From Brevibacterium gallinarum (GTDB taxonomy: Bacteria > Actinomycetota > Actinomycetes > Actinomycetales > Brevibacteriaceae), in assembly GCF_014836885.1 (NCBI RefSeq), contig NZ_JACSPY010000004.1, positions 124,001-188,000 of the forward strand: a stretch of 64,000 nt of DNA, in the 5' to 3' direction. The notes beneath the pieces were generated by a model that saw only the letters and a program-made list of their open reading frames with translations, was not told where the DNA came from and did no database searches. The position numbers and the translations under genes are program-made. Each line of letters opens with the position of its first letter. Position 1 is the stretch's first letter. Shown here in pieces: positions 23,210 through 28,442 of the stretch.

Positions 23210-23752
23210 TCAGCTGGTGTGCCGGGCTTCGCCCTCTCCGTAGCTGAACCCCGACAGGAAGATGTCGGCGTCCTTGGTGCGCTCATAGCGGTCCGTCAGC
23301 GCATGGAAGGCCGGCGAGTGATTGGGCTCGCGCAGGTGCGCGAGCTCGTGGACGAGCACCGCATCGAGGACCCACGCCGGCACCTCGCGCAGGCGCTCGG
23401 AGATCCGGATCTGACCGGTGGCCGACGTCGTCGACCCGAATCGGGTGCGCTGATTGGACACCCAGCGCACCGAGGTCGGGGCGATCCCATCGTCGAAGAG
23501 ACGTGCGTTCAGCTCATCCGCGCGGGCTTCCAGATCCTCATCACCTGGTGCCGGCACCGCAGCCCGGCGCTCCAGGCGCTCGATGAGCCGTGCGATCGAG
23601 GAGATGTTGCGCTCCAGGTCGAATCGGGCAGGCACAGCCAGCTGATAACCCACCGGGGTCTTCGTCGCCGAGATCGTCTTGCGGCGTCGCGCTGAGCGCT
23701 TGAGGGTGATCGTGCCGTCGCCGATCCCTGCTCGCACATCCGAGGCGTCCAC
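23210..23752 (-). CDS. YgjP-like (DUF45/M48-type) metal-dependent hydrolase
   Basis: The 180-residue protein has the gluzincin motif HELAHLREPNHSPAFHALTD, giving the zinc ligands of HExxH and a downstream His, at about residues 138-157. The N-terminal part is basic and beta-rich (TITLKRSARRRKT). YgjP-like proteins are conserved in bacteria; a natural substrate is not known. The GTG start at 23752 has a weak GGTGAGAG site. It is convergent with the NUDIX gene. Confidence 0.82.
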   Translation of the reverse strand: MDASDVRAGIGDGTITLKRSARRRKTISATKTPVGYQLAVPARFDLERNISSIARLIERLERRAAVPAPGDEDLEARADELNARLFDDGIAPTSVRWVSNQRTRFGSTTSATGQIRISERLREVPAWVLDAVLVHELAHLREPNHSPAFHALTDRYERTKDADIFLSGFSYGEGEARHTS

Positions 23753-24141
23753 GTACTCTCACCCTGCCCTTTCACACGGCTCTGCCACTGCAGACATCTT
23801 CGCACGCCGCACAGACATCACCACCGCCGCCGGGCCCATCGACTCCGCCGGACCCGCCGACTCCACCTCCCGCGTGACAGCCACCACTCGACCGGCAGCG
23901 ACCTGCCACAGGCGGCAGGGAAAACCAAGCCGCAACGCCGCAGTCAGGAGCTCCGGAAAAAATTCTCGAGATTTCTTTGTGTCCACACCTCACCCAGGGG
24001 GTGATTCCTCACGTCAATCGGGACTTCCCGGCAGTTGCGCTCACCCGAACCCGATACACAATGCACACCGTTATCCACACAAACGGCGTCAGTTCCCCGG
24101 CGTTTTCCACACACCATGCACAGGGGGTGCTCGGCAGTCTG

Positions 24142-24171
24142 TTGACGTGGGTGCGGCAAGCGGCATAGTTT
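24142..24171 (+). promoter_or_regulatory. Promoter of the candidate structured RNA
   Basis: TTGACG (24142-24147) is followed by a -10-like TAGTTT (24166-24171, 18-nt spacer) or the overlapping ATAGTT (17-nt spacer). The -35 element differs from TTGACA by one base. Transcription would start near 24178. Confidence 0.6.
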
Positions 24172-24177
24172 GAGGAG

Positions 24178-24322
24178 TCAGACCCTCGGAAAACCCGAGA
24201 TTCGTGGGCTGGGGGAAGGTTCACGAAACTCGCGAGCGGCTGAGGGCTTCGACCGGGCGAACAGCTCTGACGGCGTGCATCTCACGCCTCATGTCATGAG
24301 TGCGTTCGCCCGGTCTCATTTC
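24178..24322 (+). ncRNA. Candidate structured RNA of about 145 nt with a three-way junction
   Basis: Downstream of the promoter come hairpins CTCGG-CCGAG (24185-24199) and TTCGTG-CACGAA (24201-24227). They are followed by a perfect 12-bp stem formed by GACCGGGCGAAC (24251-24262) and 24304-24315. This stem encloses two further perfect hairpins, GGCGTG-CACGCC (24272-24288) and CTCAT-ATGAG (24288-24300), making a three-way junction. A short U-rich stretch (TCATTTCTGTC) follows. No open reading frame in it looks real. It could be an independent small RNA or a 5' leader of the gene starting at 24427. I do not recognise it as a known RNA family. Confidence 0.5.
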
Positions 24323-24426
24323 TGTCTGGGCCCGTTTCTGCACAGAGTTTTCCACAATCGCCTCATCCCCCTGTCCGTGCATGTGCGTGTGAGCCTACGA
24401 TGCCGGTGTACAAGGGGGTTCACGGC

Positions 24427-25317
24427 ATGAGATATCAGCTTTACCGATCGGTACCGGTGGTCTGGCGCAGCACACGATGCATCCAATTCGGTGTCGACTC
24501 CCCCGTGCTCATCGACGGGCTCACCGCGGCCGACACCGAACTCATCAATGCGATCCGGATGGGCATCAGCGCCCGCGACTTCGACGCCCGCGCAGCCCAT
24601 CTCGAAGTCAGCCCGGCTCGCTCAGCTTCGCTGCTGTCCCTTCTGAGTGAAGCCGGTGTGCTCATGCCTGTTGAGCGCACTGCGTATCGGGCCGGCAGCA
24701 CCGCGCACGTCGATGCCTATGCCGCCCGGATCCGGGCAGAGCCCAGCAGCATCACCGGACAGCTCACTCGACCCAGCGTGCTCGTCCTCGGGCCGCTGCG
24801 ACGCGGACTCCAGGCCCTGCTCGTGGCCGCCGGCATGCGCGCTGACATCATCGACCGGGCCGAGGATGCACTGACGGCGGACCGGCCGCTCGTCGTGCTG
24901 ACCGGCGCCTGGGTCGATGACGCGGTGGGCGCTGGATTCCTCCATGAGCACGGGATCGACCACTGCCACGTCACGGTCGGGCAGGAGCAGGTGCGTCTGT
25001 CGCATGTGATCCGGGCACAGGAGACTCCCTGCACGCGCTGTGCGATCGGCTTCCGCTGCGATGACGACGCCGACTGGTTCGGCAGCTGGCAGGCGCTGTG
25101 GCAGCAGGCTCCCTCCGCGTCGCTGCTCGATCCGGTGCTGTGCGCTCTGGCGTATGCGCATCAGGCCGAGCGCGTGCGCGAGCACATTCTGAATCCCGGC
25201 TGTGTCGCCGATGATCTCGTCGTCTCCGCCGGCGGCGAGGTCGTCATCGAGACACCGGAGTTCCATGCCAGCTGCGATTGCCGGGCATCCGTCCTGCAGC
25301 ATCTGAGCCGCGTGTGA
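24427..25317 (+). CDS. ThiF/TOMM-cyclodehydratase-like protein (Rv3196-type)
   Basis: The 296-residue protein has a winged-helix-like N-terminal part (about 1-85) and a Rossmann-like centre (SVLVLGPLRRGLQALLVAAG). A cysteine pair sits in ETPCTRCAIGFRCDDDADWF (about residues 196-215), and the C-terminus contains CDC. This layout resembles the ThiF-like half of azole-forming (TOMM) cyclodehydratases, where paired cysteines bind zinc, but no YcaO protein or precursor peptide is nearby. Similar proteins sit beside uvrD2 in other actinobacteria. I infer peptide- or protein-binding rather than modification. ATG 24427 has AAGGGGG 8 nt upstream; GTG 24406 is an alternative start. Confidence 0.6.
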   Translation: MRYQLYRSVPVVWRSTRCIQFGVDSPVLIDGLTAADTELINAIRMGISARDFDARAAHLEVSPARSASLLSLLSEAGVLMPVERTAYRAGSTAHVDAYAARIRAEPSSITGQLTRPSVLVLGPLRRGLQALLVAAGMRADIIDRAEDALTADRPLVVLTGAWVDDAVGAGFLHEHGIDHCHVTVGQEQVRLSHVIRAQETPCTRCAIGFRCDDDADWFGSWQALWQQAPSASLLDPVLCALAYAHQAERVREHILNPGCVADDLVVSAGGEVVIETPEFHASCDCRASVLQHLSRV

Positions 25318-27465
25318 TCAGGAGGCGTTGTCACTGCGCTGCTGACGGACGGTCTCGATGATCGCCTCACCGAACTGCTCCTGTTTGACCGGGCCGATGC
25401 CAGGCACCCGGGCGAGCTCTTCCCGGTTTCGGGGCGCAACCTCGGCAACCATATTCAGCGTCGCGTTCGTCAGCACCATGTAGGCAGGGATCTGGTGGTC
25501 CTCCGAAGCCTGCTTGCGCCAGTCCTTGAGCGCTTCGAGCAGCTGCGGGTCGATGGCTCCTGGGCAGTCGCCGCAGCGACCGATGCGGCGTTCGACGATG
25601 TTGACGAGGACCTTCTGGCACTTCTGACAGTGCACCGTGTCTCCCCCGCGGGTCGTGCCGGCAGCCCGGCTGCGCCGTGCCTGCGGGACCTGCCGGAGCT
25701 GGTCGCCGCGCAGTTCGGCCAGGAAGCGTGACGGGCGCCGCGATCCGGCCCGGCCGGCATGCCGGGCTTTCGACCAGCTCAGCCGCAGCTGCTTGCGCGC
25801 ACGGGTCACCGCGACATAGAGCAGCCGGCGCTCCTCGGCGATCTCGGCTGGTTCGCTAGCATAGCTGATGGGCATCAGCCCCTCGCTGAGGCCCACGACG
25901 TGAACGCTGTCCCATTCCAAGCCCTTGGCCGCGTGCACAGAGGCCAGTGTGACGCCGTTGATCGGCGGAGCGAACTGGTGCTCCTGCCGGTCGGCGAGCT
26001 CGGCGACGAACGTCTCCAATGGCACCGGTATCTCGCTGTCGGCCTGCATCGCCTCGGCAAGGTCGACGATGGCGGCAAGCGATTCCCACTTCTCGCGGGC
26101 GGCACCCACCCGCGATTCGCCGGCGGCACTCCAGCCGGTGTTCTCCAGCACCTCGCGGACCACCTCGGGCAGCGGCCCTACCCCGTGGGTGCGGGTGGCG
26201 GCGTTGAGCATGACGAGGGCCTGCTTGACCTCTGGGCGGGCGAAGAACCGCTCCCCGCCGCGCAGCACATAGGTGATGCCGCGGGCGGCGAGGGCCTCTT
26301 CGTAGGCCTGGCTCTGGCCGTTGGTGCGGAACAGCACCGCGATGTCCTGGGCGGCGCGTCCGGCAGCGAGCTCATGGGCGACGGCGTCTGCCACGGCTGC
26401 TGCCTCGGATGGGTCGTCGCCGTATTCGAAGTACTGCACCGGGCCCATGCGGGGATGGGTGGCCTGGAGCACGAGCGCCCCGCGGCCGGTGTGGGTCAGC
26501 AGCCGGTTGGCGGTGTCGACGATGTCGGCACTCGATCGGTAGTTGCGCACCAGTCTGACGGTCGAGGCGTTGGGCAGGTCCCGGCGCAGGCCGAGCAGGA
26601 ATGAGTCGGTGGCACCGGCGAACGTGTAGATGGTCTGGGCTGGATCGCCGACGACGCACAGGCTCTCGCGTCTGCCCAGCCAGCGGCGCAGCAGGTCATA
26701 CTGCAGCGGGGAGACGTCTTGGAACTCGTCGACGACGAAGCTGCTGTACTGGGAGTGGACTTTCGCGGCGATGTCCTCGCGGGTGCCGAGCACGCCGTTG
26801 AGCACGAGGAGGACGTCTTCGAAGTCGATGAGGCGGCGGCGGGATTTCATCTCCGAGTAGGCGAGCATGATCCGCTCCATGCTGGCGACATCGATGCCGT
26901 CGGGCAGCTCGCGGTCACCTGCAGCGTGCAGGTATTCCTCGACGCCGAGCAGGGAGGCTGCGGCGTACTCGATCTCGGCTGCGACATCGCGGACGACTTC
27001 GCGTTCTGGTTCGAAGCCGAGGCCGGCCATCGTCTGCGAGAGCACTCCGGCTTTGTGCGTCAGCAGGTCGGGAAACGGACCTTCGGCGATTGATGACCAG
27101 AAGAACCGCAGCTGTCGCAGCGCAGCTGAGTGGAAGGTGCGGGCCTGCACGCTGGGCACGCCGAGGCTGCGCAGCCGGGAGCGCATCTCACCGGCGGCCT
27201 TCGATGTGAACGTCAGGGCGAGCACCTCGGTAGGGCGGAACTGCCGGGTGTGCACGCCGTAGGCGATGCGGTGTGTCATCGCTCGTGTCTTGCCGGTGCC
27301 TGCACCGGCAAGGACGACGAGCGGGCCGTCGAAGTGCTCGGCAACCTGCCGCTGTTCGGGGTCGAGGGCGGCCAGCAGCTCTTCGGCGACCGGTCCCGAG
27401 GCGCCGGGGCCTGGGGGCGTATCCGCGTGGCTGTGCGCGCGGGGCTGGGTGGGCTGTGGGCTCAT
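25318..27465 (-). CDS. uvrD2: ATP-dependent DNA helicase UvrD2 with tetracysteine and HRDC domains
   Basis: The 715-residue superfamily 1A helicase has Walker A GAGTGKT, motif II VVDEFQDVSPLQYD, motif III-type GDPAQTIYTFAGA and motif VI VAVTRARKQL. After the motor comes a four-cysteine motif (CQKCQ...CGDC) and then an HRDC domain (YMVLTNATLNMVAEVAPRNR). This is the actinobacterial UvrD2 arrangement; in mycobacteria the protein is essential and needs the tetracysteine part for unwinding. ATG 27465 overlaps the nudC stop codon by 4 bases (ATGA). The gene ends directly against the convergent ThiF-like gene. Confidence 0.93.
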   Translation of the reverse strand: MSPQPTQPRAHSHADTPPGPGASGPVAEELLAALDPEQRQVAEHFDGPLVVLAGAGTGKTRAMTHRIAYGVHTRQFRPTEVLALTFTSKAAGEMRSRLRSLGVPSVQARTFHSAALRQLRFFWSSIAEGPFPDLLTHKAGVLSQTMAGLGFEPEREVVRDVAAEIEYAAASLLGVEEYLHAAGDRELPDGIDVASMERIMLAYSEMKSRRRLIDFEDVLLVLNGVLGTREDIAAKVHSQYSSFVVDEFQDVSPLQYDLLRRWLGRRESLCVVGDPAQTIYTFAGATDSFLLGLRRDLPNASTVRLVRNYRSSADIVDTANRLLTHTGRGALVLQATHPRMGPVQYFEYGDDPSEAAAVADAVAHELAAGRAAQDIAVLFRTNGQSQAYEEALAARGITYVLRGGERFFARPEVKQALVMLNAATRTHGVGPLPEVVREVLENTGWSAAGESRVGAAREKWESLAAIVDLAEAMQADSEIPVPLETFVAELADRQEHQFAPPINGVTLASVHAAKGLEWDSVHVVGLSEGLMPISYASEPAEIAEERRLLYVAVTRARKQLRLSWSKARHAGRAGSRRPSRFLAELRGDQLRQVPQARRSRAAGTTRGGDTVHCQKCQKVLVNIVERRIGRCGDCPGAIDPQLLEALKDWRKQASEDHQIPAYMVLTNATLNMVAEVAPRNREELARVPGIGPVKQEQFGEAIIETVRQQRSDNAS

Positions 27466-28442
27466 GCGTTGTGCATCCACGCGGAGATGAGCTGGCCTGC
27501 GATCGAGACGCTGCCGGGCACCGAGACGGCACCGGTGTCGACCTGTTCGCGCAGCTCCTCACGCGTGAACCAGCGCAGGCCGGAGATCTCGACGAGATCG
27601 GCCTGGAAGTCCAGCGTCTGCGCCTCGACGCTGAAGCCGAGCATGAGCGAGGCAGGGAACGGCCACGGCTGCGATCCGAGGTAGCGGGGGTTGCGGCACG
27701 GCACGCGTGCTTCTTCCCAGACCTCGCGCACCACGGCGTTCTCCAGGGTCTCTCCGGGTTCGACGAAACCTGCGAGGACTGAGAAGCGGTCTTCGGGCCA
27801 GGCCGCGTTGCTGCCGAGCAGGAGGCGTTCGGTGCCGTGCTCGTCGGTGTGCACGACGGCCATGATGACAGCCGGGTCGGTGCGCGGGAAGTGCTCGCTG
27901 CCGGCCTCGGGATCCCTGCGCACCCAGCCGCCGCGCATCGGCACAGTTGGCGCGCCGTTGCGCGGCGAGTGCGTATGTGTGCGGTGCCAGTTGCCCACCG
28001 CGACGAGTTCGCAGGCCAGTCCTGCGTCGCGGTCGCTGAGCGCCTCGGCGATCTCGCGCAGCGGCAGCCAGGTCGGCTCGGCTGCGTCGATGCCGCTGGC
28101 CGGTGCGTCGAGGAAGTCGACGGCGTCCCGGTCGCGCTGCGCGGCCAATGAGGAGTCGATCGCCGCACGTCCCGCATCGGTGAGGTCGATGCCGATCCAA
28201 TGGGTGTCGGTGTCGTCGACGCCCAGGTAGATCTGGGTGGAGTCCTCCGGCACCTCAGCTTCGGTCACCGGGGCCAGGCCGCCTGAGGCGACGAGCAGGT
28301 AGCCGCGGTGGGCAAGGATCCCGTGCACGCGCGAACGCTGCCACAGCTCGGAGAGATCGCCGTCGGATCCGCGCGCCGCATCGTTGCGGTCGACGGCACT
28401 GCGGGCAAGGCTGGCCGGCTGGAGCATCGGGAGGGGTTTCAT
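27462..28442 (-). CDS. nudC: NudC-type NAD(P)H pyrophosphatase lacking the zinc-ribbon cysteines
   Basis: The 326-residue protein contains the NUDIX box (GFVEPGETLENAVVREVWEE) and directly after it SQPWPFPASLM, the specific signature of NADH pyrophosphatases, which hydrolyse NADH and remove NAD caps from RNA. The usual preceding zinc ribbon keeps its frame (NWHRTHTHSPRNGAPT, GGWVRRDPEAGSEHFPRTDP), but all four cysteines are replaced, by Ser, Asn, Asp and Ala. The start at ATG 28442 is supported by a TACAGT box 7 nt upstream (leaderless). It is coupled to uvrD2 by a 4-base overlap, as in mycobacteria. Confidence 0.9.
   Translation of the reverse strand: MKPLPMLQPASLARSAVDRNDAARGSDGDLSELWQRSRVHGILAHRGYLLVASGGLAPVTEAEVPEDSTQIYLGVDDTDTHWIGIDLTDAGRAAIDSSLAAQRDRDAVDFLDAPASGIDAAEPTWLPLREIAEALSDRDAGLACELVAVGNWHRTHTHSPRNGAPTVPMRGGWVRRDPEAGSEHFPRTDPAVIMAVVHTDEHGTERLLLGSNAAWPEDRFSVLAGFVEPGETLENAVVREVWEEARVPCRNPRYLGSQPWPFPASLMLGFSVEAQTLDFQADLVEISGLRWFTREELREQVDTGAVSVPGSVSIAGQLISAWMHNA

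Follow-up and report, generated by a model that had tools for sequence, protein, structure and literature searches.

The window analysed here is a stretch of 64,000 nt from a Brevibacterium genome, and the element described lies in one of its intergenic gaps (23753-24426), which has a YgjP-like metallopeptidase gene on one side and a ThiF-like gene on the other. The gap and its neighbours hold the following features:

23210..23752, minus strand: YgjP-like metallopeptidase gene (PF01863), divergent neighbour, kept with the RNA in all lineages in which the RNA was found
24071..24079, plus strand: DnaA-box nonamer TTATCCACA, a high-affinity sequence (PMC4285127), centred about -103 from the predicted start
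24103..24111, plus strand: DnaA-box-like nonamer TTTTCCACA, centred about -71
24142..24147, plus strand: -35 element TTGACG; nearly all homologues have TTGAC(G/C) here
24166..24171, plus strand: -10 element TAGTTT, after an 18-nt spacer; predicted transcription start near 24178
24183..24246, plus strand: hairpin HP1, defined, like its parts below, by covariation and fold
24183-24189/24240-24246, plus strand: HP1 stem P1
24190-24194 (AAAAC)/24235-24239 (AGCGG), plus strand: HP1 internal loop
24195-24199/24229-24234, plus strand: HP1 stem P2
24201-24209/24219-24227, plus strand: HP1 stem P3
24212..24218, plus strand: GGGGAAG, the apical loop motif, invariant from Brevibacterium and Dermabacteraceae to more distant homologues
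24251..24315, plus strand: HP2, a variable 3' hairpin with a 12-bp base (24251-24262/24304-24315)
24316..24325, plus strand: T-rich tail TCATTTCTGT after HP2, with GCCGTTTTT here in relatives
24348..24356, plus strand: DnaA-box-like nonamer TTTTCCACA, between the RNA and the ThiF-like gene
24396..24401, plus strand: TACGAT, a conserved sequence beyond the RNA that resembles a -10 element and is assigned to the ThiF-like gene
24427..25317, plus strand: ThiF-like gene without Pfam match, neighbour in Brevibacterium, outside the RNA
25318..27480, minus strand: UvrD2-type helicase gene (UvrD and HRDC domains), convergent neighbour in Brevibacterium and Dermabacteraceae

Structure, promoter, single-copy occurrence, conserved place and box positions were computed for the RNA, which adjoins the YgjP-like gene in Brevibacterium. 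The sequence provides it with a promoter and a 3' end of its own, and 24178-24315 (plus strand) is very likely an independent small-RNA gene.

Structure and conservation of the RNA

The promoter on the plus strand is conserved among homologues at a fixed distance to the RNA. The original prediction had already pointed to it, and it stands at 24142-24171 with its 18-nt spacer; the 5' end proposed there, 24178, is where the -10 element would place the start.

The fold of 24178-24322 has an energy of -75.7 kcal/mol, compared with -52.5 ± 4.4 kcal/mol for dinucleotide shuffles (z = -5.2), and none of 200 shuffles folded as well, bearing out the earlier claim of structure beyond chance. The opposite strand also scores (z = -4.3), because inverted repeats must score on both strands. 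The arrangement of the stems had to be revised. Instead of five stems around a three-way junction, the minimum-energy and centroid structures of the 145-nt element show two consecutive hairpins, HP1 and then HP2; where the junction had been placed, both predict a single imperfect hairpin without branches, and in a large group of Brevibacterium homologues the hairpin at this place is plain and likewise unbranched. The 12-bp stem that had been proposed to close the junction is real, and forms the base of HP2. The first small hairpin, CTCGG-AAAAC-CCGAG, does not withstand the covariation test: it pairs in only 63.8% of cells among 65 distinct homologues, no better than column shuffles.

HP1 shows the covariation of an RNA structure under selection. 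In the same 65 sequences its three stems (P1, P2 and P3) pair in 91.8% of cells, 214 of them doubly changed, and the covariation score is 0.471 against 0.212 ± 0.009 for shuffled columns and at most 0.091 for slid partners. The compensatory changes in relatives on which the original prediction had been staked are thus present, at 16 of the 21 HP1 pairs. G-U pairs are frequent in the stems (the P1 column pair 13-77 is GU in 39 of 65 sequences), and therefore point to selection on RNA of the plus strand. Both sides of the internal loop are conserved and unpaired, the left being AAAAC in Brevibacterium and GATAAC or GAAAAC in Dermabacteraceae, and the right GAGCG-like. HP2 evolves fast yet compensates, with 9 of 20 pairs doubly changed within one species group. 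It ends in TTTT in many Brevibacterium, and is missing at L074 and L116, where a U-tract follows HP1 directly; HP2 is probably a terminator or 3' cap. A TTG-started frame of 86 aa overlaps the RNA and was considered as a coding gene, but it is not conserved, since the length of HP2 varies freely among relatives while the paired bases compensate. The earlier judgement that no coding frame here is credible is therefore upheld.

Searches of Rfam 15 at gathering and permissive thresholds (to E = 10), with the window and six homologous loci, returned nothing beyond chance matches at the RNA, which is thus new to Rfam. Taken with the covariation, conserved promoter, single copy and conserved place, this supports the proposal that the element is a new actinobacterial small RNA with a promoter of its own.

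By BLAST, the element was found in 27 of 57 Brevibacterium genomes, and 25 of these have it in the corresponding gap, flanked by the same genes. With a covariance model of HP1 (R1) the RNA was found in 56 of the 57 genomes, one copy each, and in all 54 of good quality; it was not found in the three other genera of Brevibacteriaceae. Weak R1 matches elsewhere in the order, obtained by searching with the RNA only and no gene context, adjoin the same YgjP-like gene, and at L071, L072 and L074 also a UvrD2 gene. With a second covariance model (R2), which includes these weak homologues, the RNA was found in 45 of 47 genomes from the family to which genome G265 belongs. This family is presumably Dermabacteraceae, judging from a Helcobacillus massiliensis locus (L265) that is identical over the core to locus L162 from the same family. 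Phylum-wide, R2 found the RNA in no other sampled genome, an absence that is weak evidence because few candidates were scored per genome.

Distant forms were sought in the gap upstream of the YgjP-like gene across many other genera (116 loci). Homologues were found in Nocardioides and Nocardioidaceae (L207, L219, L232, L238, L245, L255 and L264), in Kribbella (L223), Microlunatus (L218) and Propionicimonas (L246), and in families f5, f7 and f15. The pattern TTGAC-N15-19-TANNNT-N28-52-GGGGAAG occurs 20 times in the 116 loci, with 0.0 occurrences expected from shuffles, and each distant homologue tested forms a hairpin with GGGGAAG at its tip. In Streptomyces, Arthrobacter, Amycolatopsis and similar genera the corresponding position yielded no RNA promoter. 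Within Brevibacterium, one strongly diverged copy (genome G022, locus L076, 27 bits) keeps the GGGGAAG loop and the promoter; its AAAAC/GAGCG internal loop is lost and it has no matching upstream DnaA box.

DnaA boxes around the RNA promoter

DnaA is the protein that starts DNA replication. According to Table 1 of PMC4285127, its high-affinity boxes in E. coli/B. subtilis and in M. tuberculosis/S. coelicolor have the forms TTATCCACA and TTGTCCACA. Across its 64 kb the window has four TTNTCCACA sites, against 0.6 expected, and three of them fall in the gap that holds the RNA. In the source genome the pattern TTWTCCACA occurs 18 times, against 2 for a reversed-pattern control; four of the sites are in the dnaA-dnaN region (contig C22) and three are here within 286 bp, making the RNA locus the tightest cluster outside dnaA-dnaN. 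The locus was rejected as a candidate for oriC itself, as the dnaA-dnaN region with its oriC-type cluster belongs to another contig. Genome G048 is closed and its contig begins with dnaA; there the RNA sits 1.54 Mb along the 3.74 Mb, a long way from oriC. The source genome's own dnaA (L266, C22) has three or four DnaA-box-like sites upstream, as expected for autoregulation.

Upstream of the RNA the boxes are nearly all in plus orientation and at fixed distances to the promoter. Their centres, relative to the predicted start, are at about -71 and -103 in Brevibacterium, at about -60, -81, -113 and -176 in Dermabacteraceae, and at -59 and -71 in Nocardioides; at about -71, the site of TTTTCCACA here, most Brevibacterium have TTATCCACA. 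Upstream of the -35 element no other 9-mers are as well conserved as the boxes in both large families, while the intervening sequence varies. The family-level positions that fall within 130 bp show phasing on the DNA helix (R = 0.79 at 10.5 bp, with the best value, 0.87, at 10.95 bp), and none of 20,000 random sets was phased as strongly, although this test overstates independence because positions within families are shared by descent. The agreement of box positions across families is the stronger point. High-affinity boxes at conserved, phased positions are what a DnaA-regulated promoter would display, and DnaA control of the RNA promoter is likely.

Such control may be lost or absent in places, since many Dermabacteraceae have only one or two strong boxes, and L005, L076, L094, L118 and L246 have no matching box. 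Relatives keep the downstream DnaA-box-like site at a fixed place, near +124/+136 or +159/+170 in RNA numbering. In two low-GC Brevibacterium (L014 and L025) a reverse-oriented box, TTATCCACA or TTTTCCACA, falls within HP2, about 109 nt after the RNA start, and is therefore inside the transcribed hairpin. DnaA boxes, single or in pairs, were also seen ahead of the YgjP-like gene in Amycolatopsis, Arthrobacter, Streptomyces and Kitasatospora, at loci where the RNA promoter was not found (L195, L199, L204, L209, L211, L224, L242 and L254). A box at the YgjP-like gene may be older than the RNA, or may serve the peptidase gene.

Candidate functions of the RNA

We propose that transcription by RNA polymerase with the housekeeping sigma factor would begin near 24178 and stop at HP2, or in some other families at the U-tract right after HP1. 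The resulting stable RNA would display the invariant purine loop GGGGAAG at the tip of a long hairpin with a freely variable stem sequence; the RNAs of Brevibacterium and Dermabacteraceae would display the AAAAC-type/GAGCG-type internal loop as well. The apical loop appears to be the working part, because the stems change freely and the loop is invariant. DnaA, bound at the same-face upstream boxes (about -60, -71, -81, -103, -113 and -176, by species), would control the promoter, most likely as a class-I-like activator. For class I activators such as CRP, same-face placement at about -61, -71, -82 and -103 is predicted, and it is by this analogy that DnaA is cast as an activator here. The amount of RNA would then follow DnaA activity or the replication cycle, and the box positions suggest that the RNA is tied to that cycle. 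The RNA may act in trans through its loop, either by pairing with CU-rich (CUUCCCC-like) sites in mRNAs or by binding a protein; the 5' region of dnaA, around its start, held no convincing complement to the loop in either of two genomes. Transcription, DnaA binding, the direction of its effect and action in trans are all things that we infer.

A DnaA-controlled, trans-acting small RNA of a family outside Rfam is the explanation that fits best, and we hold it with somewhat more belief than doubt. The more specific version, in which class-I-type activation through phased boxes lets a small RNA with a GGGGAAG loop relay replication status in several actinobacterial families, is put forward only tentatively. 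To our knowledge, few structured small RNAs of Actinobacteria are known, and the coupling of gene expression to chromosome replication in these bacteria is poorly understood. One promoter, one RNA and a handful of mutable boxes would offer a concrete handle on that coupling. If DnaA control holds, this would be a DnaA-driven small RNA, of which none was found in the literature searched; most subscription journals were outside that search, so an earlier description is possible. It would also mean a dedicated regulatory arm from DnaA to a small RNA, conserved across several actinobacterial families.

In the main rival explanation the RNA is independent of the boxes, which would instead serve to control DnaA at the level of DNA. 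The small RNA would then be constitutive and would merely share the gap with a DnaA-titrating or resetting locus of the kind represented by datA, DARS and the B. subtilis clusters. A box cluster is indeed present, likened to datA and DARS by its presence and not by detailed arrangement, and it is one of few outside oriC; boxes also lie downstream of the RNA in Brevibacterium, and single ones precede the YgjP-like gene in three genera that yielded no RNA promoter (Streptomyces, Amycolatopsis and Arthrobacter). However, the upstream boxes keep their distance and helical phase to the RNA promoter in several families, even where downstream boxes are missing, and we regard a separate role for the boxes as unlikely, if still a serious contender.

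It is improbable that the RNA is instead the 6S/Ms1-type RNA-polymerase-binding RNA of these bacteria, for which no detectable Ms1 is reported. Published work gives no Ms1 locus for Brevibacterium (PMC9130861) and predicts additional RNAP-binding RNAs (PMC11077062), so that a single-copy structured RNA with a housekeeping-type promoter might fill the place. The known RNAs, however, are rods of about 200-300 nt with a large central promoter-like bubble, whereas the present RNA measures 75-145 nt (145 nt and two hairpins here), and has a short internal loop and an invariant apical loop; its neighbours are unlike those of Ms1, and Rfam gave no match.

The other possibility raised by the original prediction, a 5' regulatory leader of the ThiF-like gene, which would act in cis as a riboswitch or attenuator, is very improbable. 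In Brevibacterium the RNA does lie upstream of this gene and in the same direction, but the gene has a conserved TACNNT-like -10 element of its own, downstream of HP2 and about 30 nt before its start. The RNA also persists in other families without the gene, with no ThiF match in the fetched flank at L071, L072, L074, L096, L113 and L125, and its 3' ends are terminator-like, the U-tract directly after HP1 at L074 and L116 among them. The ThiF-like protein (296 aa) is conserved in the genus without a Pfam match at E 0.001. DnaA-box-like sites stand at fixed distances before the gene's own -10 element (24348-24401 and relatives), and the gene may belong to the same regulon as the RNA.

Least probable of all is that the hairpins act as DNA (in cruciform or single-strand form) or as a mere terminator, with no functional RNA: inverted repeats adjoin DnaA boxes and HP2 alone resembles a terminator, but the common G-U pairs point to plus-strand RNA, the promoter is dedicated and at a fixed distance, and a terminator would need neither the conserved apical loop nor the internal loop.

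Comparison with known systems

The 6C RNA (RF01066) is a short actinobacterial RNA of stem-loops with a homopolymer-like loop motif, and resembles our candidate in being a short stem-loop RNA of Actinobacteria. Its loops are C-rich, whereas the loop here is GGGGAAG. The RF01066 model matched in none of 12 genomes including the source genome, so that 6C was set aside both as an identity and as a partner of the RNA in these genomes.

Ms1, 6S RNA and CoRP are likewise single-copy structured intergenic RNAs found by their conserved gene neighbourhood (PMC9130861, PMC11077062), but they are much longer and have other neighbours, and the RNA described here has no Rfam match and no large central bubble. 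CcnA of Caulobacter crescentus, a member of an unrelated phylum, is reported to be a noncoding RNA linked to cell-cycle control (PMC8959179), and the likeness drawn here is one of proposed role. The datA and DARS1/DARS2 loci of E. coli and the DnaA-box clusters of B. subtilis share with our locus intergenic boxes away from oriC (PMC4585315, PMC5295017). The available portions of those reports describe no conserved RNA at these clusters, whereas here the boxes are phased to the promoter of one.
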